From assembly GCF_019823105.1 (NCBI RefSeq), contig NZ_CP081958.1, positions 868,001 to 932,000 on the forward strand: DNA of 64,000 bases. Direction: 5' to 3'. How positions within the stretch are numbered: position 1 is the first letter of the stretch; each line of letters opens with the position of its first letter. This document shows positions 4,936 through 18,422 of the stretch, piece by piece. This stretch comes from Halobaculum magnesiiphilum. Its GTDB lineage: Archaea; Halobacteriota; Halobacteria; Halobacteriales; Haloferacaceae. The notes beneath the pieces are model-generated. The model saw nothing but the letters and a program-made list of their open reading frames with translations, had not been told where the DNA came from and did not search any database. Made by a program: the position numbers and the translations under genes.

Positions 4936-4991
4936 GCCGATCGGAGGTTCCGACGGAGTTCCGTGTGAGGCGATCGCCGTCGCGGGGATTT

Positions 4992-5005
4992 TATATCGCG
5001 ATATA
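4992..5005. repeat. AT-rich perfect palindrome, copy 1 (TATATCGCGATATA)
   Basis: A perfect 14-bp palindrome, followed by TGATTCATC, 56 bases after the kinase stop. Closely related sites occur at 15642-15657 and 18249-18264. It could be a protein-binding site, a promoter element for the BtpA gene (about 100 bases upstream of its start), or an intergenic repeat. Confidence 0.75.
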
Positions 5006-5105
5006 TGATTCATCCGTCGCTCGCGGGGCAAGTTCGTTCCGTGGTGAGCGACCCCGCGTCCCGCCGATCGTCAGACTAAGGCCGGAACCGGTGGTAACTC
5101 GCGTC

Positions 5106-5915
5106 ATGTTCGACTCGCTGTTCGCGGACGGCCGACGGCCAGTGATCGGGATGGTCCACCTCCCGGCGCTCCCCGGGGCGCCGAAGTACGACGGCGACCG
5201 CGAGGCGATCGTCGAGGCCGCCGAGCGCGACGCGCGTCGGCTCGCGGCCGGCGGCGTCGACGCGATCATGGTCGAGAACTTCGGCGACGCGCCGTTCTAC
5301 CCGGACGACGTTCCCAAGCACGTCGTCGCGAGCATGACGCGGGCGACGCGGGCGGTCGTCGAGACCGCGGACGTGCCCGTCGGGGTGAACGTCCTCCGCA
5401 ACGACGCCGAGGCGGCGCTGTCGGTCGCCGCGGCCGCCGGCGGTGACTTCGTCCGGGTGAACGTTCACACGGGCGCGCGCGTAACGGATCAGGGTGTCAT
5501 CGACGGGACGGCTCACGAGACGATGCGCCTTCGTGAGCGTCTCGACGCTGACGTGGCGGTGTTGGCCGATCACGACGTGAAACACTCCGCGCCGATCGCC
5601 GCGGCGGGGTTCACGGCCGAGTCCGTCGCCGACGGCGTCGAGCGCGGGCTCGCGGACGCCGTCGTCGTCAGCGGCACCGGCACCGGCCACGAGACCGACC
5701 GCTCGGATCTGGAACACGCCGTCGAGCGGCGGGACGCGACCGACCTCGACACGCCGATCCTCGTCGGCAGCGGCGTCGCCGCCGACACCGTCGCGGAGAC
5801 GCTCGAGCTCGCCGACGGCGTCATCGTCGGCACCGCGCTCAAGGAGGACGGCGACGTGGGCAAGCCCGTCTCGGAGGCCCGCGTGCGGGAACTCGTCGAG
5901 GCCGCCCGTTCGTAG
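5106..5915 (+). CDS. BtpA/SgcQ family TIM-barrel protein
   Basis: 269 residues, close to the family length. The opening 'RPVIGMVHLPALPGAPKYDG' is the classic BtpA signature, followed by 'GVDAIMVENFGDAPF', 'GVNVLRNDAEAAL' and the C-terminal phosphate-binding-like loop 'ADGVIVGTALKEDG'. The family has a TIM-barrel fold. BtpA itself is linked to photosystem I stability in cyanobacteria, but non-photosynthetic archaea must use the fold for something else, probably sugar or nucleoside phosphate chemistry. It faces the PfkB kinase gene, and the two stops are only about 30 bases apart. ATG 5106 directly precedes the family signature, so this start is well supported. Confidence 0.88.
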   Translation: MFDSLFADGRRPVIGMVHLPALPGAPKYDGDREAIVEAAERDARRLAAGGVDAIMVENFGDAPFYPDDVPKHVVASMTRATRAVVETADVPVGVNVLRNDAEAALSVAAAAGGDFVRVNVHTGARVTDQGVIDGTAHETMRLRERLDADVAVLADHDVKHSAPIAAAGFTAESVADGVERGLADAVVVSGTGTGHETDRSDLEHAVERRDATDLDTPILVGSGVAADTVAETLELADGVIVGTALKEDGDVGKPVSEARVRELVEAARS

Positions 5916-5945: not shown

Positions 5946-7034
5946 CTATCGATCGCCGCGATCACCGCGACCGCCGCGACCGCCACGCTCGCCTCGCTCG
6001 GCGAGGAACGACTCGACCTCCGCGCGAGTCGCCAGCCCGCCGCGTGCCCCGTCCCCGGTAACGTTCAGCGCGGCGGCCGCCGCCGCGAATCGCCCCGCCT
6101 CGTGAACGTCGTCCCCGCCGAGCACCCAGCGAACGATCAGCGCCGCCGCGTACGCGTCGCCGGCGCCCGTCTCGTCGACGACCGGCACCTCGAACGCCGG
6201 GAGCTCGTGGAGCCCCTCCCCGTCGCCGAGGACGGCACCGTCCGGCCCGGCGGTGACGGCGACGCGACCGGCACCCCGCGAACGCAGCTCCGCTGCCGCC
6301 TCCCGCCCCGTGCACCCCAGATACGATTCGGCGGCGACCTCGCCGACGACGAACAGGTCGGCCGCCTCGACCCACCGGTCGATCGTCTCCTCGCGCGCGC
6401 CGCGCCCGGCCAACTCCGCGAGCGGTCCCGAGAGGTCGAAGACGAACGGCGGCGCCTCGGGTCGCCGGGCGACCTCGATCGCGTCGCGGTGGACCTGGTC
6501 GGGGTTATAGGCCGTGAGGAAGGCGGCGTCGGCGCCCGCGAGCGCGGCGCGATCCGCCTCCGAGAGCCGAAGGCGCTTCGCCGAGTCGCCGGCGGTCACG
6601 ATGCTCCGTTTCCCGTCGCCGTCACGGAGTATTACGCAATGCGTGCTCGTTCCCGACTTCCGCCGGACGCGGGCGTCGTCGATCGGGCTCGCGTCGAGGT
6701 CGGCGGCGACCCGGGCGCCGACGTCGTCGTCACCGAGCCGGGCGATCAGTCCGGTCGAGCGACCGAGGCGCGCGCTCGCGAGCGCGACGTTGGCGCCGAC
6801 GCCGCCGAACGCCTCGGCGACCGTGTCGGCGTAGGCGCCGCCGTCGGGTTCGGGGATGTTGGTGACGCGGTAGGTGCGGTCGACGGTCGCGGCGCCGACG
6901 GTGACGACCTCGGGTGCTGGCGGGTCGCCGACCAGCGTTCCATCGGGCTCGGCGTCCGCGGTCGCGCCGCCGTCGCCATCACCACCGCCTCCGCCGTCGC
7001 CCGTGTCGCCGCCCGCGGCGTCGCGGCCGGTCAT
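5946..7034 (-). CDS. PfkB-family carbohydrate/nucleoside kinase
   Basis: 362 residues. A Gly/Asp-rich disordered N-terminus (about 40 residues) precedes a ribokinase fold: 'VVTVGAATVDRTYRV', the Gly-Gly substrate motif 'AFGGVGANVALASARLG', and the C-terminal PfkB signature 'DETGAGDAYAAALI' with the catalytic Asp. The C-terminus ends in a short Arg/Gly/Asp repeat (RGGRGGRGDRGDR) not usual in the family. Substrate (sugar, nucleoside or other) cannot be read from sequence. It follows the metallophosphoesterase with a 1-base gap, so the two form an operon, and it converges on btpA. Association of BtpA with a PfkB kinase hints at a shared small pathway (inference). Confidence 0.9.
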   Translation of the reverse strand: MTGRDAAGGDTGDGGGGGDGDGGATADAEPDGTLVGDPPAPEVVTVGAATVDRTYRVTNIPEPDGGAYADTVAEAFGGVGANVALASARLGRSTGLIARLGDDDVGARVAADLDASPIDDARVRRKSGTSTHCVILRDGDGKRSIVTAGDSAKRLRLSEADRAALAGADAAFLTAYNPDQVHRDAIEVARRPEAPPFVFDLSGPLAELAGRGAREETIDRWVEAADLFVVGEVAAESYLGCTGREAAAELRSRGAGRVAVTAGPDGAVLGDGEGLHELPAFEVPVVDETGAGDAYAAALIVRWVLGGDDVHEAGRFAAAAAALNVTGDGARGGLATRAEVESFLAERGERGGRGGRGDRGDR

Positions 7035-8001: not shown

Positions 8002-8230
8002 ACGGTGGCCTCGGCCAGCCGTCTCAAAACGGTCCCGGTCCCGGTCGAACGTGTGCGGTCGGCAGACCGTTGACGGGGGATCGACCGCGTCCGACTGCCG
8101 GCCGGCGATATATCATGGACGATACGTGGAAATGCAGATGTGTGAACTAGAGAGCGATCCGGAGGCGTATATATACACATAGGACTGCAGATGGCAAGTT
8201 ATTTGCTGTCTGAACGGACGCATGTACCTG
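8002..8230. promoter_or_regulatory. Divergent promoter region between metallophosphoesterase and ABC operon
   Basis: Contains AT-rich patches unlike the surroundings: GATATATCAT near 8107, the 10-bp palindrome GTATATATAC at 8167-8176, and GTTATTT at 8197-8203, the likely TATA box of the ABC operon. The palindrome just upstream of that box is a candidate operator. Confidence 0.45.
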
Positions 8231-10384
8231 ATGTCCGAGGACACCACTCGGCGGCGCTTTCTCACGGCGGCAGGCTCGGGCGTGGCGGCGGCGCTCGCGG
8301 GCTGCTCCGGGAACCAGCCGGACGAACAGTCGACCGAGGCCGAAACCGACACGCCGGAATCGACGTCGACGGCGACCGCGACGCCGGAACCCGAACGGCA
8401 GTACACCGGCGGGACGCTCCAGTTGGCCTCCAACGGCCCCGTCCAGACGCTCGACCCGATAAACGCGAAGGGGTCGGGGGCGGGATACAACCAGTACAAC
8501 GGGACGCTCATGACGTTCGAGAACGGGGACCTGCCGCCGGTCGCCGGGCTCGCGACCGACTACGAGGTCTCCGAGGACGGCCGCACGTACACCTTCCAGC
8601 TCCGGGAGGGCGTGCGCTTCCACAACGGCGACGAGCTGACGGCGCAGGACTTCGTCTACTCGTGGGAGCGGCTCGCGGGCGCCGAGGAGACCCGCAACGC
8701 CGACGACATCGTCGGCGACACGTTCGCCATCGACCACGAGAAGCAAAGCGACATGGACGGCGTCTCGGCGTACATCCCCGGCACGCTGGCCGTCGAGGCG
8801 GTCGACGACTACACCTTCGAGTTCACGATGGCGACCGCGTTCACGGGAACGATGTCGCAGATCGCCAGCGGGACGTTCGCGCCGATCCCCGAGGGGTCGG
8901 TCGCGTACCCGAAGGACTACGAGGACCACGAGGGCGTGGACGGCCTCATGTGGGAGGGGGAGTACGAGTATAACGAGTACTTCTCGACCCAGGGCGACGG
9001 CCCGTACTTCGCTGGCGTCGGGCCGTTCCAGATCGACTCCTGGAGCAAGGGCGACGCGATCACCCTGTCGGCGTTCGAGGACTACTACGGCGAGGGGCCG
9101 TACATCGACGAGATCGTCTACACCGTCATCGGCAACCAGCAGACGCGCTTCTCCCGGTTCAAGAACGGGAACCTCGACGTGCTGCTCAACGGGATGCCGA
9201 CGGCGGCGTTCAACTCCGAGCGCCGGAGCATCGACCGCGACCGCGGCACCTACCGGACGGGCACGTACGAGCTCGACAACGGCGAGACCGTCAACTACGG
9301 CGAGGCGCCCGCGCTCGACACGGACTACCTCGTGTTCAACTGCGCTCGCACGCCCAAGCCGGTCCGGCAGGCCATCGCGTACCTGATCAACCAGGAGCGG
9401 ATCTCTCAGGACGTGTACAAGGGCCTGCAGCCCTCGGCGTACCACCTCACGCCGCCGGGCGCGTTCATGGCCCGCGAGGGCGAGAACCCCGGCGAGAACT
9501 ACAACAAGCACTACCAGGACGGGCACCGCAACCAGCTCGACCGCTACGCCGACGGCTATCCCTACGGGGTCGGCGAGGCGCGGATCGGCGAGGCCCAGCG
9601 CGTCATGGAGGAGGCCGGCTACGGCGAGAACGAGCGTGCGGAAGTCGAGTTCACGGTGTTCTCCGGCGACGGCTCCTGGGACTCGATCGCTCAGACACTG
9701 CGCGACAAGGCGACCGCCGCCTACATCGACATCAACATCGTGAAGGCCGACTTCGGGACGATCATCGGCCAGGCGCTCGACGGGTCGATGGACATGTTCT
9801 CGCTGGGCGACGGCATGGAGTGGCCCGAGTCGGACAATTTCCTCCGATTCATCCCGCCGTACGACAATCCCAGCGGAATGTTCACCCGGTGGACGTACCA
9901 GGTCGTCTGCTCGGAGGTCGACTTCGACGGCGACGGCGCCGAGACGGTCGGCGCGAACGTGTACGAGCAACTCGACGGCGACTTCCCCGAGGACCACGTC
10001 AAGGTGAACACCGACGGCAACCAGGTCCGCGTCGCCATCGAGAACGTCACCCCCAACGAGCTGGAGTCGGCGCTCGATGCGGCGGGGTACAGCCACGGCG
10101 GGGCCGAGTCGACCCAGGCGCCGTTCGACCCGCTCATGCCTCGCTCCGACCGCCAGTGGGACACGTACCTCGAAAACCGCGGGCCCAGCGACGAGGCGGT
10201 TCGCGCCCGCGACGAAGTGTACTACTTCCAGGAGGAGGTCAACTGGGCGGCCGTCCAGGAGCTCCCGCTCGTGCACTCGATCACCCAGCGGCTCTGGCAG
10301 GACCGGGTGAACGTCCGCATGGCCGGGACGATGGTGAATCAGACGTTCAACACGCTCACGCTCGAGGACCAGGACGGGAACTGA
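8231..10384 (+). CDS. ABC transporter solute-binding lipoprotein (DppA/OppA family), Tat-exported
   Basis: About 717 residues from the ATG at 8231 (an in-frame ATG at 8222 is also possible). The N-terminus has a twin-Arg motif (TRRRFL) and a lipobox ending LAGC at Cys25, so it is a Tat-exported, lipid-anchored protein outside the cell. A Thr/Glu-rich linker follows, then an SBP_bac_5 domain starting 'GGTLQLASNGPVQTLDPI' with the family signature around 'YEVSEDGRTYTFQLREGVRF'. It captures peptides or, as for several haloarchaeal homologues, oligosaccharides. It is the first gene of a five-gene uptake operon. At over 700 residues it is longer than the usual 500-550, partly through acidic insertions. 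Confidence 0.92.
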   Translation: MSEDTTRRRFLTAAGSGVAAALAGCSGNQPDEQSTEAETDTPESTSTATATPEPERQYTGGTLQLASNGPVQTLDPINAKGSGAGYNQYNGTLMTFENGDLPPVAGLATDYEVSEDGRTYTFQLREGVRFHNGDELTAQDFVYSWERLAGAEETRNADDIVGDTFAIDHEKQSDMDGVSAYIPGTLAVEAVDDYTFEFTMATAFTGTMSQIASGTFAPIPEGSVAYPKDYEDHEGVDGLMWEGEYEYNEYFSTQGDGPYFAGVGPFQIDSWSKGDAITLSAFEDYYGEGPYIDEIVYTVIGNQQTRFSRFKNGNLDVLLNGMPTAAFNSERRSIDRDRGTYRTGTYELDNGETVNYGEAPALDTDYLVFNCARTPKPVRQAIAYLINQERISQDVYKGLQPSAYHLTPPGAFMAREGENPGENYNKHYQDGHRNQLDRYADGYPYGVGEARIGEAQRVMEEAGYGENERAEVEFTVFSGDGSWDSIAQTLRDKATAAYIDINIVKADFGTIIGQALDGSMDMFSLGDGMEWPESDNFLRFIPPYDNPSGMFTRWTYQVVCSEVDFDGDGAETVGANVYEQLDGDFPEDHVKVNTDGNQVRVAIENVTPNELESALDAAGYSHGGAESTQAPFDPLMPRSDRQWDTYLENRGPSDEAVRARDEVYYFQEEVNWAAVQELPLVHSITQRLWQDRVNVRMAGTMVNQTFNTLTLEDQDGN

Positions 10385-10472
10385 CCCGACCGAGGGGCGG
10401 CCGCCTCACGTTTCAACAGTGTTTTTGTAATCCGATCGAACCAACCAACGACACCAGAGACTCCCGCTACAC

Positions 10473-11519
10473 ATGAACCGGCTGAAATACATCGTCAAAC
10501 GCGTTCTCATGTCCGTTCCCGTCCTGTGGTTGGGAACCAGCATGACCTGGTTCATCATCTACCAGGGCCCCGTGGATCCGGCTGCCAACCTCCTGAGCGG
10601 AAACGAGCGCCTCACGGAGGCGAAATACGAGGCGGCCCGGACGGAACTGGGCCTCGATCAACCGCCTTTACAGCACTACGTCGACTGGATGTGGAACCTG
10701 TTCACCCTCGATCTCGGACAGACCTGGCTCGTATACACCGGGTCGAACGTCGGCGCGCTGGTGCTGGATTTCCTCCCGCGCACCGTCTGGCTCGGCTTCT
10801 GGTCGGTGCTCATCGCCATCCTGATCGGCGTTCCCCTGGGCTTTTACGCCGGGATCCGGTCGAACACGGTCGCCGACTACATCGCCTCCGTCTCCGGGAT
10901 CGTCTGGCGTGCGATGCCGAACTTCTGGCTCGCGGTGATCCTCCTCGCGCTGCTGGTCGGCTCGGAGCCGCTGTTCGGCTTCGATTGGGACACCTTCCTG
11001 GTCGACCTTCCCTCCGGCGTGACCGGAAATCCCGGCCTGTCGTACATGGCCGGCGACCCCCTCGCGCTGTTCACACAGCCGGGGGAGACGCTCGCGGCGA
11101 TCAAGAAGATCCTCCCGGCCGCGCTCGTGTTGGGCTCGGCGTCGATGGGCAACGAGATGCGTATCGGCCGGACCGCGGTCCTCGAAACGAAGAACGAACA
11201 GTACGTCGACTTCGCGCGCGCCCGCGGCGTCTCCGGGCGTGCGATCGTCTGGAAGCACGTGTTCCGGAACGCGCTCGTCCCGCTGGTTCCCGTGATCACC
11301 ACGGAGGCGTTCCTCCTCATCGGCGGCAGTGTTCTCGTCGAGTCCGTGTTCGGGATCAACGGGATGGGGAAGCTGTTCTTCGACGCCGCGATCCAGGGCG
11401 ACCTCCCGCTGGTCGGGTCGCTCATGTTCGTGTTCATCGTGCTCATGCTCACGATCAACATCGCACAGGACATCCTCTACACCCTGATCGACCCCCGCGT
11501 CGGCTACGACGGGACCTGA
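10473..11519 (+). CDS. ABC transporter permease, DppB type
   Basis: 348 residues with about six membrane segments. It begins with the conserved N-terminal helix of DppB/OppB permeases ('LKYIVKRVLMSVPVLWLG') and carries the EAA loop for contact with the ATPases near 'DFARARGVSGRAIVWKHVFRNAL'. The end 'LIDPRVGYDG' is typical of the family. It lies 88 bases after the binding protein, with a T5 tract (TGTTTTTG at about 10420) in between that may attenuate transcription or serve as a second promoter, so the permease genes may be expressed at a lower level than the binding protein. Confidence 0.93.
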   Translation: MNRLKYIVKRVLMSVPVLWLGTSMTWFIIYQGPVDPAANLLSGNERLTEAKYEAARTELGLDQPPLQHYVDWMWNLFTLDLGQTWLVYTGSNVGALVLDFLPRTVWLGFWSVLIAILIGVPLGFYAGIRSNTVADYIASVSGIVWRAMPNFWLAVILLALLVGSEPLFGFDWDTFLVDLPSGVTGNPGLSYMAGDPLALFTQPGETLAAIKKILPAALVLGSASMGNEMRIGRTAVLETKNEQYVDFARARGVSGRAIVWKHVFRNALVPLVPVITTEAFLLIGGSVLVESVFGINGMGKLFFDAAIQGDLPLVGSLMFVFIVLMLTINIAQDILYTLIDPRVGYDGT

Positions 11520-11523
11520 CTCC

Positions 11524-12978
11524 ATGGCTACACAATTCAACACGTACACCGAAGGCGAGGCCGCACCGCTTCGAGACAGAGTCATGGCGAACCCCCGCCC
11601 GGCTGCGGTGTGGGTCGGCGTCGCCGCCGTGTTGTTCGGGCTGCAGGGGGGCGCGGTCGTGCAGTTCCTCGTGGCGCTGATCGTGGACGCCGCGTCGGCG
11701 CTCCCTGGCGTCGCCGTTCCCGCCGCCGTGAGCGCGCTCGAACGGGTTGCCGACGCCGTCCCGACGCTGCTATCGCGAGAGACGATCCCGAACCGAGGGT
11801 ACTACGACGGCAGCGGCTACGTCGGCACGTTCCTCGGCCTGTCGCCGGATCTCGCGTGGCTCCTCCGGGTCACGCTCATCTACGCGTACTCGTTCGCGGC
11901 GCTGGCGTGGGTGTGGATCGGCTACGAGCGGTACCGCACCCACTACCGGATCGCCGACTGGACGCCCCGCGACGACGTGATCGACCGGTTCCGCGGCCAC
12001 AAGTGGGGCCTGTTCGGCGTCGTCGTCGTCGCGATGTTCTTCGTGATGGTCCTGTTCGCGCCGGCGCTCTCCCCGACGACGACGGCGGCGAACCTCGAAG
12101 ACCCCTACGGACACGAGGTCACCTACTGGGCCGACGGCGAAACCCAGACCGTGACCGTCGGCCAGGCGAACCTGGGGTCGCAGTCGCAGGGAACCCCCCA
12201 GGAGAACGTCGGCCCGATGCAGTACGACGACTACGGACGGATCCACCCGTTCGGGACCCTCCCCAGCGGGAAGGACTTGTTTACCTTCATCGCCCACGGG
12301 TCTCGGATCTCGCTGATCATCGGACTGGTGTCCGTGGGCCTCTCGGTGTCGATCGCGGTCGTCCTCGCGCTGATGACGGCGTACTACAAGGGGAAGATCG
12401 ACCTCGGCGCGGTGCTGGTCTCCGACGCGGTGATGGGGATGCCGCAGTTGCTCCTGCTCATCATGCTGTCGGTGATCCTCTCGGGGACGTGGATCGGGAA
12501 GATCTACTCGGGGGCGTTCGTGCTCGCGTTGATCTTCGCGGGCACGGGCTGGCCGGCGATGTGGCGCTCGTTCCGCGGTCCGGCGTTGCAGGTGTCGAAC
12601 CGCGAGTGGGTCGACGCCGCGAAGTCGTTCGGACAGACCCCCGGGACGATCATGCGAAAGCACATGCTCCCGTACATCACCGGCTACGTGCTCGTGTACG
12701 GCTCGATGACGCTTGGCGGGGCGATCATCGCCATCGCCGGCCTCTCGTTCCTCGGGCTGGGCGTCAACCCGCCCACGCCCGAGTGGGGACGGGCGGTCAA
12801 CGCCGGTCAGGACTACGTGACGACCGCCTCCTGGCACATCTCGCTCATCCCCGGCATCCTGATCACACTCGTCGTGACCGGGTTCAACGCCCTCGGTGAC
12901 GGCGTTCGCGACGCGATCGATCCGGAGTCCGACGCGGAGGATCAGGGCGGCGCCAGCGGCCGCGGGGGTGGTGCCTGA
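11524..12978 (+). CDS. ABC transporter permease, DppC type, with extended N-terminus
   Basis: 484 residues against about 300 for a standard DppC. The extra roughly 150 N-terminal residues contain two or three additional hydrophobic segments ('AAVWVGVAAVLFGLQGGAVV', 'LLRVTLIYAYSFAALAWVWI'). The conserved core starts at about residue 150 ('RFRGHKWGLFGVVVVAMFF') and has an external loop ('EVTYWADGETQTVTV') and the EAA loop ('NREWVDAAKSFGQTPGTIM'). It ends 'FNALGDGVRDAIDP', the usual DppC ending. The start is 4 bases after dppB and the stop overlaps the next start by one base, so translation is coupled. Confidence 0.93.
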   Translation: MATQFNTYTEGEAAPLRDRVMANPRPAAVWVGVAAVLFGLQGGAVVQFLVALIVDAASALPGVAVPAAVSALERVADAVPTLLSRETIPNRGYYDGSGYVGTFLGLSPDLAWLLRVTLIYAYSFAALAWVWIGYERYRTHYRIADWTPRDDVIDRFRGHKWGLFGVVVVAMFFVMVLFAPALSPTTTAANLEDPYGHEVTYWADGETQTVTVGQANLGSQSQGTPQENVGPMQYDDYGRIHPFGTLPSGKDLFTFIAHGSRISLIIGLVSVGLSVSIAVVLALMTAYYKGKIDLGAVLVSDAVMGMPQLLLLIMLSVILSGTWIGKIYSGAFVLALIFAGTGWPAMWRSFRGPALQVSNREWVDAAKSFGQTPGTIMRKHMLPYITGYVLVYGSMTLGGAIIAIAGLSFLGLGVNPPTPEWGRAVNAGQDYVTTASWHISLIPGILITLVVTGFNALGDGVRDAIDPESDAEDQGGASGRGGGA

Positions 12979-14090
12979 TGCGACCGAACCCGGTCGACGG
13001 CGCCGACGAGCCTCCGACCGGCGACGGCCTCAGAACGGACGGCGGCGACGCGCTCCTCGAGGTGGAGGGGCTGACGACCGTCTTCCACACCGACAAGGAG
13101 ACGATCCGCGCGGTCGACGACGTCTCCTTCGCCGTCGAGGAGGGCGAGACGCTCGGGATCGTCGGCGAGTCCGGGTCGGGGAAGTCCGTGACGGCCCGCT
13201 CGATCCTCGGGCTGATCGACTCGCCCGGAACCATCGAGTCCGGCTCGATCCGCTTCCGGGGGAACGAACTGACCGGCGGGAACTGGGACACCCACCGCGG
13301 CGACGTCTCGATCGTGTTCCAGGACCCGAGCAACTCGCTCAACCCGGTGTACACCGTCGGGAACCAGATCCGCGAGACGCTGCGGATCCACCAGGGGCTC
13401 ACCGGCGCGGCCGCCCGCGAGGAGGCCGTCCGGCTGCTGGAGTCGGTAGGGATCCCCGACGCCCGCCGGCGGGTCACGGAGTACCCGCATCAGTTCTCCG
13501 GCGGGATGAAACAGCGGGCGGTCATCGCCGTCGCGCTGGCGTGCGACCCGGACCTGCTCGTCTGTGACGAGCCGACGACGGCCCTCGACGTGACCATTCA
13601 GGCGCAGATACTGGAACTGCTCGACGAACTGCAAGAGGAGGAGGATCTCGCGATCGTGTTCATCACCCACGACATGGGCGTCATCGAGGAGACCGCCGAC
13701 CGCGTGAACGTCATGTACGCCGGCGAGATGGTGGAGTCCGCGCCGGTCGAGGAGCTGTTCGACTCCCCGCAGCACCCGTACACGCGGGGGCTCCTGGCGT
13801 CGATCCCCGGGCGGACGGTCAGCGGCGACCGCCTGCCGACGATCGGCGGGGAGGTGCCCACGCCGACGACGGAGCCGACCGACTGCCGCTTTGCCGACCG
13901 CTGTCCGGAGGCGTTCGACGCGTGCGAACGCGTCCACCCGGAGCCGGTCCGGGTCGGCCCCGACCACACCGCCGCGTGTCTGCTCCACGAGGAGGCGTAC
14001 GACCACGACCCGGACGCGGGCGCCCCCGGAGCCGAACGCGGTGTCGACGGCGCCGACGACGCCGTCGCCGACGGGGGTGATCGCGAATGA
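12978..14090 (+). CDS. ABC transporter ATPase, DppD/OppD type
   Basis: 370 residues. Walker A '[10 protein letters not shown]' at about 72, Q-loop '[11 protein letters not shown]', ABC signature '[12 protein letters not shown]' and Walker B '[12 protein letters not shown]' are intact. The C-terminal oligopeptide-transporter extension with Cys motif ('[14 protein letters not shown]...AACLL') is present and may hold an Fe-S cluster or metal, as seen in some DppD homologues. Start codon overlaps the dppC stop (ATG within TGATG) and its own stop overlaps the next ATG (ATGA). It forms the ATPase pair with the following gene and energises uptake at the membrane's cytoplasmic face. Confidence 0.94.
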
Positions 14091-15583
14091 GCCGCGGCGA
14101 CTCGTCGGCGAGTTCGGACGCGGACCGGGCGAGCGCGTCGGCCGCCGAGGGAGCGACAGAACCGGCGGCGGCAGCCGGAAGCGCCGACCCTACCGACGCT
14201 GACGCCGGCGGCCCCGACACAGCCGACCCGGACGCCGGGGGCGAGACGCTCGTCGAGGTCCGGAACCTGAAGAAGTACTACGACGACGACGGGTTCCTCG
14301 GCGACGACCCGGTCAAGGCCGTCGACGGCGTCTCCTTCGACATCCGCCGCGGCGAGACGCTCGGGCTCGTCGGCGAGTCCGGCTGCGGGAAGACGACGCT
14401 CGGCCGGACGATCCTCGGCCTCGAGGACGCGACCGACGGCGAGGTCGTCTCGGACGGGCGCAACGTGGCACGCCTCTCGGGGAAGCAGCTCCGCGAGTGG
14501 CAGCGGGACGCACAGATGGTGTTTCAGGACCCCGAGGCGAGCCTGAACGACCGGATGACGGTCGGCGAGATCGTCCGGGAACCGCTGGACGCCCACGACT
14601 GGGGGACCCCCGACGAGCGGAAACGACGCGTGTTCGAGCTGCTCGATCTCGTCGGGCTCAACGAGGAGCACTATTACCGCTACCCCCACCAGTTCTCGGG
14701 CGGGCAGCGCCAGCGCGTCGGGATCGCCCGGTCGCTCGCGCTCGAACCCGAGTTCATCGTGCTCGACGAGCCGGTGTCCGCCCTCGACGTGAGCGTCCAG
14801 GCGCGGGTGATCAACCTCCTGGAGGACCTTCAGGAGGACCTCGGACTGACGTACCTGTTCATCGCGCACGACCTCTCGGTCGTCCGCCACATCGCCGACC
14901 GCGTCGCCGTGATGTACCTCGGCGACATCGTCGAGCTGGGCGACACCGAGGCGGTGTACACCGACCCGGCGCACCCGTACACCCGGTCGCTGCTGTCGGC
15001 GATCCCCGGCAGCCACACGGGCACCGACCGCCGGCGCGTGACGCTGCGCGGGACGCCCCCGTCGCCGCGGGACCCCCCGCAGGGGTGTCGCTTCGCCACC
15101 CGCTGCCCGGCGAAGGTCCGTCCCGAGGAGTTCGACGACCTCTCGGGGACCGCCTGGGAGCGCCTCGACGCGCTCCACACGGTGTTCCGCGAGCGCGCGA
15201 ACAGCGAGACGGGAGTGACGGAACTGCTGAAGCAGCGCCTCGGGCTCGCGGCGGCCGCCGACGACATCGACGAGGTGGTCGCCGACCTGTTCGGCTGGCA
15301 TCCCGACGACGGCGCCGTCCCCGAGGACGTGGGCCCGGACGAGCCGCTCCTGTCGGGCGACGCCCGCGCGGCCGTCGAGGACGCCGTCGACGCCGCCCGC
15401 CGGGGCGACGACGCGGCGGCGGCGACGCTGCTCACGGAGACGTTCGGCTCCGTCTGTGACGAGCAGCGCCCCGAACGGCACGTCGTCGACGACGACGGCC
15501 GCGTCAGCGCGTGCGTCCGCCACGACGCGGAGTACGAGTCGCCCGGTCCCGTCATGGCGCGTCGGTACGGCGACGACGACTGA
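14087..15583 (+). CDS. ABC transporter ATPase, DppF/OppF type, with C-terminal insertion
   Basis: 498 residues, well above the usual 320-340. A disordered Ala/Ser/Asp-rich N-terminus (about 50 residues) precedes Walker A '[11 protein letters not shown]', '[13 protein letters not shown]', signature '[12 protein letters not shown]' and Walker B '[12 protein letters not shown]'. The C-terminal Cys motif is split: 'GCRFATRCP' is followed by about 115 extra residues, helical and acidic, before the second half 'VCDEQRPE...SACVRHD'. The insertion is not part of the standard family and could be a regulatory or protein-binding module. The ATG overlaps the previous stop by 4 bases. It is the last gene of the operon. 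Confidence 0.93.
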
Positions 15584-15596: not shown

Positions 15597-15641
15597 CGCG
15601 ACCCGTTGGCTCGGAAATTCGATCGCCGGACCCCCGCCATT

Positions 15642-15657
15642 GTATATCGCGATATAC
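15642..15657. repeat. AT-rich perfect palindrome, copy 2 (GTATATCGCGATATAC)
   Basis: A perfect 16-bp palindrome, followed by GATTTATC, 59 bases after the ABC operon. It shares its core and downstream tail with the sites at 4992 and 18249 and lies at the left side of the decayed/recombinase segment. Confidence 0.75.
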
Positions 15658-15714
15658 GATTTATCAGTCGGAGACGAACCGACTTCTGACGGAGTAGAAC
15701 CGACAGAAACAGTC

Positions 15715-15978
15715 GGCCAGCCCGCCGAGAGCGGGAGATCGAGGCGTCGCGAGGCGTCGTCGGCCCCGAAGCGACACGGCGGGAGGTCACGACGGTCGTC
15801 CGCGAGGAGACCGACGAGCTCGTGTTGTGTCGCCCTGACACCCGGATCCGACGATCGATGGCGAGGAGACGGGCGACGCCGTCGCCGTCGACACCCCGCT
15901 GAAGGCCGCCGGTGGCAACGGTACCGCTTTCCCGAGAAGGAGCGTGATGAAATCAGAACGGCGAGGTGATTCACGCGA
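15715..15978 (+). pseudogene. Possible decayed gene fragment
   Basis: Three plus-strand frames in turn give protein-like, haloarchaeal-looking segments: 'VTTVVREETDELVLCRPD' (about 15787-15840), then 'DGEETGDAVAVDTPLKAA' (about 15857-15910), then 'RWQRYRFPEKERDEIRTAR' ending at a TGA near 15970. The natural order and composition suggest one former coding sequence broken by at least two frameshifts. I do not recognise the family. The alternative is chance reading of GC-rich DNA. Confidence 0.35.
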
Positions 15979-16582
15979 GATTCCGAGTGCATCCGAGTAC
16001 TGTACTACGGTACCCTCGGCAGAAGGCAACATCTAGCCGGAACGGGCCGAGACCCGGTACCCCTCAACGAGAGACAGATACATGTCCGATCTGACCTGCA
16101 AGGCCGGGAACCCGCCCTGGAAGGCGACTGCTCCGGGCCATCGCTGTGTACCTGCTGCGGCCGCCCAATAGCCTCATCAGGGAGTACCGCTGACGTTCGG
16201 TCGGATGGATATCGCGGCACTCCGATCGGCCAGCGCCCCGAGACCCGTTCGCCCGCCCGCTCGGTCGGCCGCGACCAAGGAGCGTGTGAACCATCGGTCG
16301 TCATTTAGCGATCTGAGCCACCCGGTTCGGACCCATCATGCACCGCAACTACGCTACCCCACTAGCGCCGACATCGAACGTGATGGGGCGGGAATAGAAT
16401 CAGACAGAATTCTGCATCAAATTGTGCTGCTCCCCGAAATCAAGTAGATGCAGTTAAACAGGCGTTTCAGGGACTAGAGAGCAGATTTATTCCGGATAGG
16501 AGATTTGAAGCAATACATAGAATTAGTGCATTAGGACAGTAGATTGCATCAGATTGATGGTGATCGCCCCGATGAAGTGGGT
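15979..16582. other. Intergenic stretch without a supportable gene
   Basis: About 600 bases of mixed composition, becoming distinctly AT-rich from about 16380 to 16560, just before the DUF5805-type gene. Short open frames exist on both strands but none has haloarchaeal codon use, a start signal or recognisable protein character. It looks like decayed or recombinogenic DNA upstream of the recombinase pair. Confidence 0.5.
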
Positions 16583-17044
16583 ATGAGCGACGCGGACGCC
16601 GACACCGAACGGGTCGCCGTGACCGCCCGGGTGCCGGCCTACCAGAAGGAGGCGTGGGTCGCCGACGCCGAGCGCCTCGACATGTCCCAGTCGGAGTTCC
16701 TCCGGACCATGGTCCAGGCCGGCCGGCGCGACCTCGGGATCGCCGACGAGTTCGGTCCGCCGGCCGGAACCGACCCGCGATCGGTTCCGGATCACGAAGA
16801 TCAGGCAACATCGGCCGGGAACGAGGAAGGAGCTTCTCCCCCCTCACACCCCAGGGGTGACGGCCTCGAAGACGACCTCCTCGGCGCCCTCTCGGACGCC
16901 GGAGTCATGTCGTTCGACGAACTCGTCGAGGCGGTCACCGGCGACATCGAGGAGCGCGTCGACGAGACGATGGGCGAACTCCAGTCGCGCGGGCTGGTTC
17001 GCTACAGCGGCCGCGACGGCGGGTACGTCCCGGTGGAGCGATGA
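16583..17044 (+). CDS. DUF5805-type small DNA-binding protein upstream of the recombinase
   Basis: 153 residues. The N-terminal half (about residues 8-50: 'ERVAVTARVPAYQKEAWVAD', 'MSQSEFLRTMVQAGRRDL') has the strand-helix-helix pattern of a ribbon-helix-helix protein. A disordered linker follows, and residues about 95-150 form a winged-helix-like domain ('DDLLGALSDAGVMSFDELVE', 'LQSRGLVRYSGRDGGYVPV'). Haloarchaeal proteins of this kind (DUF5805) commonly precede a tyrosine recombinase. Its stop overlaps the recombinase ATG by 4 bases (ATGA). It is probably an accessory or regulatory factor for the recombinase (inference). ATG 16583 is preferred over upstream in-frame codons because the family alignment starts there. 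Confidence 0.8.
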   Translation: MSDADADTERVAVTARVPAYQKEAWVADAERLDMSQSEFLRTMVQAGRRDLGIADEFGPPAGTDPRSVPDHEDQATSAGNEEGASPPSHPRGDGLEDDLLGALSDAGVMSFDELVEAVTGDIEERVDETMGELQSRGLVRYSGRDGGYVPVER

Positions 17045-18108
17045 GCGCCGCCGGCGGAACCGACGGCGGCGACGCGGACGACGATCCGATCGGCTACTTC
17101 CTCGAGGACATGGAGCTCCACGGGAAGAGTCGGCGGACGCGTGCGGAGTACGGCCGCGTTCTCAGGCGATTCGAGGGGTTTCTCGCGGACCCGACGCGCG
17201 GCCCCGGCGGCGGCGCAAGCGAACCGGAGGCGGCCTCACACCGCGACTGCATGGCGTTCGTCCACGAACTGCGCCGCGATCCGGACCTGACGGACTCGAC
17301 GACGGCGACGTACGCCGCGTACCTCCACCGGTTTTTCGCGTACATGACGCAGGTCGGCGCGTTCGACGCGAACCCGATGGCGCTGGTGATGGAGGAACTC
17401 GACGAGCGGATCGACACCGACCCGACCCGACGGGAGATCTCCGTCCCCGGGATGCGGCGCTTCGTCGGCGACATCACACACCCGCTGGAGCGCGCGCTCG
17501 TCGTCACGCTGTTGAAGACGGGGATGCGCGTCGGCGAGCTGTGCAACCTGGACCTGCGCGACGTGTCCCTCTCACACGAGCTCGACGGCTACGATATCGG
17601 CGGTCGCGCACAGGTCGACGGGCGACCGAACTCCCTGTTCGTCGCCAGCGAGCCGTCCGTGGGCGAGGTGTACAACGGCGAGGAGCGGACCGCCTCGAAC
17701 AAACGCAAGCGCGGCACGGTCGTCCCCGTCGACGACGAGCTCGCGGAAGCCCTCGTCCGGTGGCTCGCGGTCCGTCCGGACCCGGTGTCGCCGGCGGAGC
17801 CGCTGTTCGTCGGCACCGGCAGCGGGTGGGGCGAGCGCCTCACGCCCGAGCAGGTCGGCCGCGTCGTGCGATCGCACGCGACCGACGCCGGGTGGTACGA
17901 GACCGGCGCCGGGGCCACCGAGAACGTCACGCCGCACTACTTCCGGCACTTCTTCACCACACACCTCCGGGACCGGATCGGCGACCGCGGCGTCGTGAAG
18001 TACCTCCGCGGCGACGTGGCAGACGACATCATCGACACCTACACCCACAACTGGGGCGACAACGTCCGAGAGACGTACGAGCGCCACATCTACTCGCTGT
18101 TCGAGTAG
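17041..18108 (+). CDS. Tyrosine recombinase/integrase (XerC/D-like)
   Basis: 355 residues. An N-terminal SAM-like core-binding domain ('PIGYFLEDMELHGKSRRTRA', residues about 18-125) is followed by the catalytic domain: first Arg in 'LLKTGMRVGELCNL' (about 160-172), a basic 'SNKRKRGTVVPV' hairpin with the candidate Lys, 'HYFRHFFTTHLRDR' holding the His-x-x-Arg pair, and the nucleophile Tyr probably in 'NVRETYERHIY' ten residues from the end. All catalytic positions appear intact, so it should be active. It is translationally coupled to the gene before it. Whether it is a chromosomal Xer-like enzyme or an element integrase is not decided by sequence; no tRNA gene is adjacent. Confidence 0.9.
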   Translation: MSAAGGTDGGDADDDPIGYFLEDMELHGKSRRTRAEYGRVLRRFEGFLADPTRGPGGGASEPEAASHRDCMAFVHELRRDPDLTDSTTATYAAYLHRFFAYMTQVGAFDANPMALVMEELDERIDTDPTRREISVPGMRRFVGDITHPLERALVVTLLKTGMRVGELCNLDLRDVSLSHELDGYDIGGRAQVDGRPNSLFVASEPSVGEVYNGEERTASNKRKRGTVVPVDDELAEALVRWLAVRPDPVSPAEPLFVGTGSGWGERLTPEQVGRVVRSHATDAGWYETGAGATENVTPHYFRHFFTTHLRDRIGDRGVVKYLRGDVADDIIDTYTHNWGDNVRETYERHIYSLFE

Positions 18109-18422
18109 CCGAACGGCACGCTCGGACCGTCCTCGCGGCCGAAGAGTCCTGCTTCTCTCCGCTGGTCTCGGAGGAGAGAGCGGTACCCTGTTAGAACTAT
18201 ACACTCGTGTACCGTGGAGACCGCGGTTCGAGACAGTCTGATAAACTGTATTTCGATATATAGAATTCATCCCCCGATCCCGGACCCGCGGTCGTGGGTC
18301 GGCCGGGGATACGAACCCTGAGGCGGGCGCTCGCGAGTGTTGCGGCCGGAACTGTCCGATGACGACATCCGGCGAAGAGGGAGGTGTCCGCTTCACGAAC
18401 TGGCCCCCCGGGCACGTCGCGT
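18109..18422. other. Intergenic region after the recombinase
   Basis: 314 bases with no supportable gene. It holds an inverted CTCTCC/GGAGAG element at about 18154-18179, an AT-rich patch from about 18195 to 18270 including palindrome copy 3, and GC-rich sequence after that. Confidence 0.5.
18249..18264. repeat. AT-rich palindrome-like site, copy 3 (diverged)
   Basis: GTATTTCGATATATAG followed by AATTCATC. It resembles the palindromes at 4992 and 15642 and keeps their downstream CATC tail, but the symmetry is imperfect. It lies on the right side of the recombinase pair. Confidence 0.55.

Follow-up and report, generated by a model that had tools for sequence, protein, structure and literature searches.

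A Xer-like recombinase between inverted dif-like sites: a probable core site-specific recombination locus of haloarchaea

Introduction

What does a tyrosine recombinase do when its gene sits on the chromosome between related AT-rich palindromes? The question is raised by a locus of Halobaculum magnesiiphilum (G000), in a stretch of 64,000 nucleotides (positions 868001-932000 of contig C1, NZ_CP081958.1) that is called here the window. Named relatives with 83-88% protein identity, Halobaculum gomorrense among them, place it in this genus. At this locus a recombinase gene is coupled to a gene for a DUF5805 protein, and palindromes lie on both sides of the pair (Table 1). The original prediction, made from the letters of the window, took the palindromes to be alike in orientation and to be possible target or crossover sites, which would make the locus a small mobile or invertible cassette with some decayed DNA inside. 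After comparison with other haloarchaeal genomes we consider it likely that this is a core haloarchaeal site-specific recombination locus, in which a Xer-like recombinase would act on its own flanking inverted dif-like sites. No published description of the locus was found in a search by title and abstract, with closed-access work and preprints outside its scope.

A core recombinase gene and its partner

The recombinase gene matches the Pfam family Phage_integrase (PF00589) and a SAM-like N-terminal domain, and the gene before it is assigned to DUF5805 (Pfam PF19121, E 1.1e-25). Together with the overlap of 4 bases between the two genes, these matches bear out the predicted coupling of the pair. 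A recombinase match was found in 57 of 60 genomes from many families, the window genome included, and in all 47 of those that are at least 90% complete. Within the family 150 of 151 genomes carry the gene (E <= 1e-100), which in two cases is interrupted by a single internal stop, and there is one strong copy per genome except in G007, which has two, and G123, which has none at this threshold. A sample of the phylum gave matches in 40 of 196 genomes (E <= 1e-60), all 40 from the same order; 136 of the 156 genomes with no match are not itemised. The recombinase is a core chromosomal gene of the haloarchaeal order. As it also lies beside the same dppF and exonuclease-like genes in the majority of the genus genomes retrieved, the idea of a small mobile cassette was not upheld.

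Five residues of the protein (R163, K221, H299, R302 and Y334) are invariant across 10 recombinase sequences, and we take them to be the catalytic set of tyrosine recombinases (R, K, HxxR, Y). The closest sequence matches in the PDB are the XerA-type entries 4a8e and 5hxy, which also came at ranks 2 and 3, after a phage integrase, in a fold search with the predicted model; this ranking rests on a model of modest confidence, with a predicted local distance difference test score (pLDDT) of 62 that falls below 50 around the catalytic end. Against the NCBIfam family recomb_XerA_Arch the protein reached 104.4 bits, below the curated cut-off of 220, and it is therefore named XerA-like and not XerA. 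For the DUF5805 protein (model pLDDT 68) the PDB fold search gave no match at E <= 0.001, and matches to NikA/Arc and to winged helices appeared only with E above 0.6. Perhaps this protein is a DNA-binding partner or helper with a ribbon-helix-helix and a winged helix, as the predicted model hints.

Inverted dif-like sites at the recombinase

At most loci one motif lies closely 3' of the recombinase stop codon, in a single orientation. A weight matrix was trained on 47 of these downstream sites only, the upstream sites being left out of training, and it still detects the upstream sites, on the opposite strand. Across 94 loci the upstream matches (0.4-6.5 kb before the gene) were 108 on the minus strand and 1 on the plus strand, and the downstream matches (to 2.5 kb) were 96 on the plus strand and 0 on the minus strand. 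Nine further matches fell beyond these ranges, and a reversed-sequence control gave 5 matches over the cut in 1.6 Mb. An inverted bracket was present at 89 of the 94 loci: at 49 of the first 54 (the 57 matching genomes without G021, G023 and G047) and at all 40 later loci, which had not been used for the motif. These later loci were chosen from family genomes with long contigs and from multi-species genera, and some share a genus with the first set.

In the window the palindromes proved to be part of a longer asymmetric site, ATAAAYYRTATRTCGCTATAYNRAAT. The palindrome GTATATCGCGATATAC is matched at 16 of 16 bases at 15642, at 14 of 16 in the copy at 4991 and at 12 of 16 in the copy at 18248. 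Each of 8 genus genomes gave 9 to 16 matches when the site pattern was searched at a tolerance of 3 mismatches, against 0 or 1 for the backward pattern, and at a tolerance of 2 mismatches the backward control gave none in any of the 60 genomes. The base matches and this control confirm that palindromes beyond chance stand where they had been predicted. Their orientation had been misread, because the tails GATTTATC and AATTCATC were compared, while the strong arms (TAAAYY) face inward at both ends of the cassette, the sites at 15642 and 4991 being on the minus strand and that at 18248 on the plus strand. Read with the full asymmetric site, the two palindromes are inverted.

In layout the consensus site of 28 bp can be read as 11-6-11, with arms that share 4 of 11 positions; two 11 bp arms with a 6 bp spacer are given for archaeal dif in the available text of PMC8371274. 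The XerA/dif systems of Pyrococcus abyssi, Thermoplasma and Sulfolobus resemble the present locus in having a chromosomal tyrosine recombinase and an imperfect inverted site, AT-rich apart from a short CG-rich centre, and the predicted dif of Sulfolobales lies close to xerA according to the accessible portion of PMC2958812. Unlike in these systems, two inverted sites bracket the gene and its DUF5805 partner here. The main text of that 2010 XerA paper has no word starting with 'Halo', and a review of Haloferax volcanii replication, in the part available, mentions dif sites only as a possibility and leaves open the role of the XerC/D-like proteins of this species. The plasmid dif (pdif) modules of Acinetobacter, as far as the available accounts of them go, also have genes between inversely oriented Xer-type sites; in contrast to them, the present locus is chromosomal and archaeal, comes with core genes, and has the recombinase itself inside one bracket. 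Invertible segments driven by tyrosine recombinases share inverted sites, a recombinase inside and both orientations among genomes with this locus, whereas here no congeneric inversion was classed and there is no obvious switched gene.

Orientation of the cassette among genomes

Each locus was oriented by its recombinase, and the genes outside both sites were then compared pairwise. There were 578 parallel genome pairs and 540 pairs with the flanks swapped and reversed; an earlier first set of pairs had given 209 parallel, 85 inverted and 3 of neither kind. A classed comparison was available for 75 of the 89 loci with both sites, and 68 of them form one main orientation group, in which two states were distinguished (48 versus 20 genomes) with 4 of 1111 comparisons inconsistent. 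The recombinase tree requires a minimum of 6 orientation changes, 4 of which are forced by well-supported branches. Direct alignments of G016 with G031, of G034 with G031 and of G064 with G015 show both flanks reversed around a parallel cassette. On one side G016, G034 and G031 keep flank homology up to a distance of 47 to 176 bp from the sites, and between G011 and G017 it extends into the site. Control modules behaved differently: metG-ybaK in 24 genomes gave 177 parallel, 0 inverted and 6 other pairs, and the nifU-like and RIO2-like modules likewise gave 0 inverted pairs.

The cassette has flipped repeatedly between genera. The invertible cassette of the original prediction is thus borne out on an evolutionary time scale, with both orientations found among genera, and it seems that the adjacent recombinase makes the flips.

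Sites on secondary replicons and a role in multimer resolution

Related sites were also counted, at up to 2 mismatches, in 29 genomes with a full set of matches (19 with 10 added; one overlapping palindrome row of G124 was dropped). One or a few such sites were found on each of 33 of 49 secondary contigs, a number that sums 34 contigs and 15 counted by hand, with sizes mostly lacking, so that some may be partial replicons. Four genomes taken as drafts or single contigs (G011, G092, G103 and G104) add no secondary contigs, and contigs of about 1 Mb or more in G134 and G120 were counted as chromosome. The base after CGC differs between the replicons, T to G being 38:7 on secondary contigs and 47:130 on chromosomes outside the recombinase locus (Fisher p 1.3e-12; five chromosome rows with neither base are excluded). 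In the window genome a T-type site on contig C2 (L116:9115-10795) lies 0.4 kb from a small gene and 0.8 kb from its paired gene, which on this one contig is labelled ParA-like from its Walker motif.

It is likely that the locus works as follows. The Xer-like recombinase and its DUF5805 partner would sit between inverted copies of the recombinase's own dif-like target, the enzyme would bind and cut these sites, and recombination between the inverted copies would flip the stretch with the cargo, DUF5805 and the recombinase. The conserved bracket and the flips make it most likely that the sites are crossover sites of the recombinase, as the original prediction had offered. The presence of such sites on many secondary replicons suggests that the main job of the enzyme may be the resolution of multimers of chromosome and plasmids, a purpose that the T-type sites there would serve. 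Inversion of the cassette would then be a rare by-product or a slow switch.

Weighing of the evidence and alternative explanations

Several observations weigh against this reading. One site is missing at 5 of the first 54 loci (G042, G043, G048, G051 and G058), and with 2 mismatches allowed 16 of the 49 secondary contigs are without a site. Only 4 of 11 positions are identical between the consensus arms, and it is therefore layout and context that carry the likeness to dif; a pair of inverted sites at the gene is also unlike the textbook single dif, and the chromosomes hold further related sites. Among the genome pairs 68 belonged to neither orientation class and 133 could not be classed, and G141, a genome that takes part in 3 of the 4 inconsistent comparisons, is needed for one of the six changes on the tree. 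Flank homology on the opposite side of the cassette does not begin until 1.2 to 4.7 kb away from the sites (G016, G034, G031, G064 and G015), and the breakpoint is therefore tight on one side only. Between the window and its close relative G007 identity falls within the recombinase gene, not at the site. According to the available part of a Haloferax volcanii review, viability was kept when four xerC-like genes were deleted, which may or may not include the cassette recombinase. Finally, zero pairs within a genus were classed inverted: there were 55 parallel pairs in g1, 45 parallel in g49, 145 parallel with 3 other and 13 unresolved in g13, and 4 parallel with 2 other and 2 unresolved in g24. 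The cassette is therefore not a fast switch, and flips are rare or rarely fixed.

An alternative that we regard as unlikely starts from bracketed transcription units: a DNA-binding protein, be it DUF5805 or some other, would use the sites as operators or as another kind of regulatory element at either end of a transcription unit, and the flips would be ordinary rearrangement. Related pairs do bracket single transcription units of core genes and these pairs are not seen flipping. The RIO2-like units and several of the nifU-like ones have their 5' site 40-50 bp ahead of the start codon; the 3' site comes 70-205 bp after the stop codon in the nifU-like units, and in the RIO2-like units it either overlaps the stop codon or lies at most about 60 bp past it. 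However, operators would hardly account for a recombinase cassette that flips repeatedly when unit-sized controls do not, nor for sites behind 3' ends and on secondary replicons, and the inward orientation is independent of the direction in which the genes are transcribed. A dedicated inversion switch, alternating the orientation of cargo and recombinase within populations, would agree with a recombinase inside an inverted bracket and with both orientations among genera, but it is quite improbable: the within-genus comparisons give fast phase variation no support, and the cargo is lineage-specific or decayed, which therefore leaves no obvious gene to switch.

The sites could also be the ends of a mobile or integrated element, either a mobile cassette or an element using Xer for integration. 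Variable cargo, an ABC transporter operon that is present or absent between an outer and an inner site within the genus, and the second recombinase in the cassette of G007 would fit such an element, which we nevertheless hold to be very improbable. Integration by a tyrosine recombinase leaves direct repeats, whereas the cassette has inverted ends; together with the core status of the recombinase, this led us to reject a mobile element with direct ends. The original prediction had also named what would speak against it, a palindrome at many loci with no recombinase and a pair in the same syntenic place in all relatives. Related sites do occur elsewhere with no recombinase and the pair is largely syntenic, but between genera the pair is found in both orientations against the same flanks.

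Cargo and left end of the cassette

Table 1. Features of the window around the recombinase locus (positions within the window)
Feature	Position	Strand	Remarks
Outer upstream dif-like site (palindrome 4991-5006)	4986..5013	-	motif score 38.3; oriented as 15637-15664; precedes btpA
btpA	5106..5915	+	Pfam BtpA E 2.4e-84; cassette cargo in 7 other genomes
pfkB-family kinase	5946..7034	-	Pfam PfkB; adjoins btpA in the window genome, G004 and G017
Peptide ABC transporter operon	8222..15583	+	Pfam; between the outer and inner upstream sites
Inner upstream dif-like site, 28 bp core (palindrome 15642-15657)	15637..15664	-	strong arm toward recombinase; motif score 39.0; 0 mismatches to genome pattern
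Variable cargo stretch	15671..16582		no recurring gene in the window genome
DUF5805 protein, 153 aa	16583..17044	+	Pfam PF19121
Tyrosine recombinase, 355 aa, XerA-like	17041..18108	+	order-wide core gene; 4-base overlap with DUF5805
Downstream dif-like site, 28 bp core (palindrome-like 18248-18263)	18241..18268	+	motif score 44.5; inverted relative to 15637-15664

The stretch between the upstream site and DUF5805 carries different genes by lineage. They include btpA, assigned by Pfam, and, with names read from sequence, SRAP-like genes, MBL-fold-like genes with a long acidic protein, beta-lactamase-like and RIO2-like genes and the second recombinase of G007. At 15.7-16.6 kb of the window there is no open reading frame (ORF) from the recurring cargo families, apart from shadow frames of DUF5805, which fits the decayed DNA that had been proposed for the cassette. 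In 5 of the 7 other genomes with btpA as cargo, the gene starts within about 130 bp of the upstream site. In G045 (L111) a RIO2-like gene is nested in the recombinase cassette, at -2.3 to -0.8 kb from the recombinase and between inward-facing sites; its product is 50% identical to the G126 protein, and the right site lies about 0.5 kb behind the gene.

The third copy of the palindrome in the original prediction is a real site as well, about 90 bp ahead of btpA and about 10.6 kb from the inner site, with the ABC transporter operon between the two. In G004 and G008 the operon has no match within the 20 kb of sequence retrieved at the recombinase, and in G004 btpA lies near the recombinase. As the site at 4991 precedes a gene that is cassette cargo in seven other genomes, it is probably the older left end of the cassette, and the operon and the second site (15642) would have come in between later.

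In G007 the flanks are about 95% identical to the window, yet its first recombinase is only 74% identical as a protein, and the second (51% identical) lies within the cassette, about 2.2 to 1.2 kb before the first. Over the last 190 bp of the recombinase gene the DNA identity between G007 and the window climbs to 87-100%. A breakpoint at the palindrome between these close relatives was sought but not seen, the drop in identity lying inside the recombinase gene.

Gene modules between related sites

Chromosomal sites that lie within 4 kb of each other in the 29 genomes are mostly inward-facing (42 of 48; -+ 42, +- 4, ++ 2 and -- 0). Such pairs bracket metG-ybaK, a NifU-like operon, a RIO2-like kinase and an M24-type peptidase, all named from sequence. 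Flipping of the bracketed metG, nifU-like and RIO2-like units was tested and none was seen.

A wider reading, which we put forward as tentative and on the whole doubtful, is that sites across the genome form a network served by a single core recombinase: the enzyme would resolve replicons through T-type sites, flip its own cassette, and make core genes (methionyl-tRNA synthetase, the RIO2-like kinase and the NifU-like operon) exchangeable modules through inward-facing pairs. If true, the network would be an archaeal chromosomal counterpart of the Acinetobacter dif modules. The comparison supplies a defined gene and a defined site, with predictions that can be tested in genetically tractable organisms. 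It also presents a recombinase that is core and yet inside its own invertible bracket, and a possible route for the shuffling of core genes in haloarchaeal genomes.

Among the 14 genomes of other genera in which metG was compared, 12 had no such site at the gene and 2 had a single one. The RIO2-like unit with its bracket occurs at unrelated loci within one genus (L199, L201, L211 and L213), with homology ending at the bracket; this distribution could be module transfer or mere conservation of a transcription unit. At the locus of the unit in G126, it is absent from 3.4 kb of G157 and G148, with no single site left, and homology of these genomes to G126 stops 76 bp before the site. Four viral contigs of IMG/VR have an exact match to the site pattern, and inspection of the ORFs near these sites by eye gave no lead.

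In the genus of the window genome, metG and ybaK lie between an inward-facing pair in all 10 genomes (C1 24184-27254 in the window genome; L114:9185-12255). The window genome also has a second metG-like gene, 64% identical and with one internal stop, on contig C2 (62094-63773).

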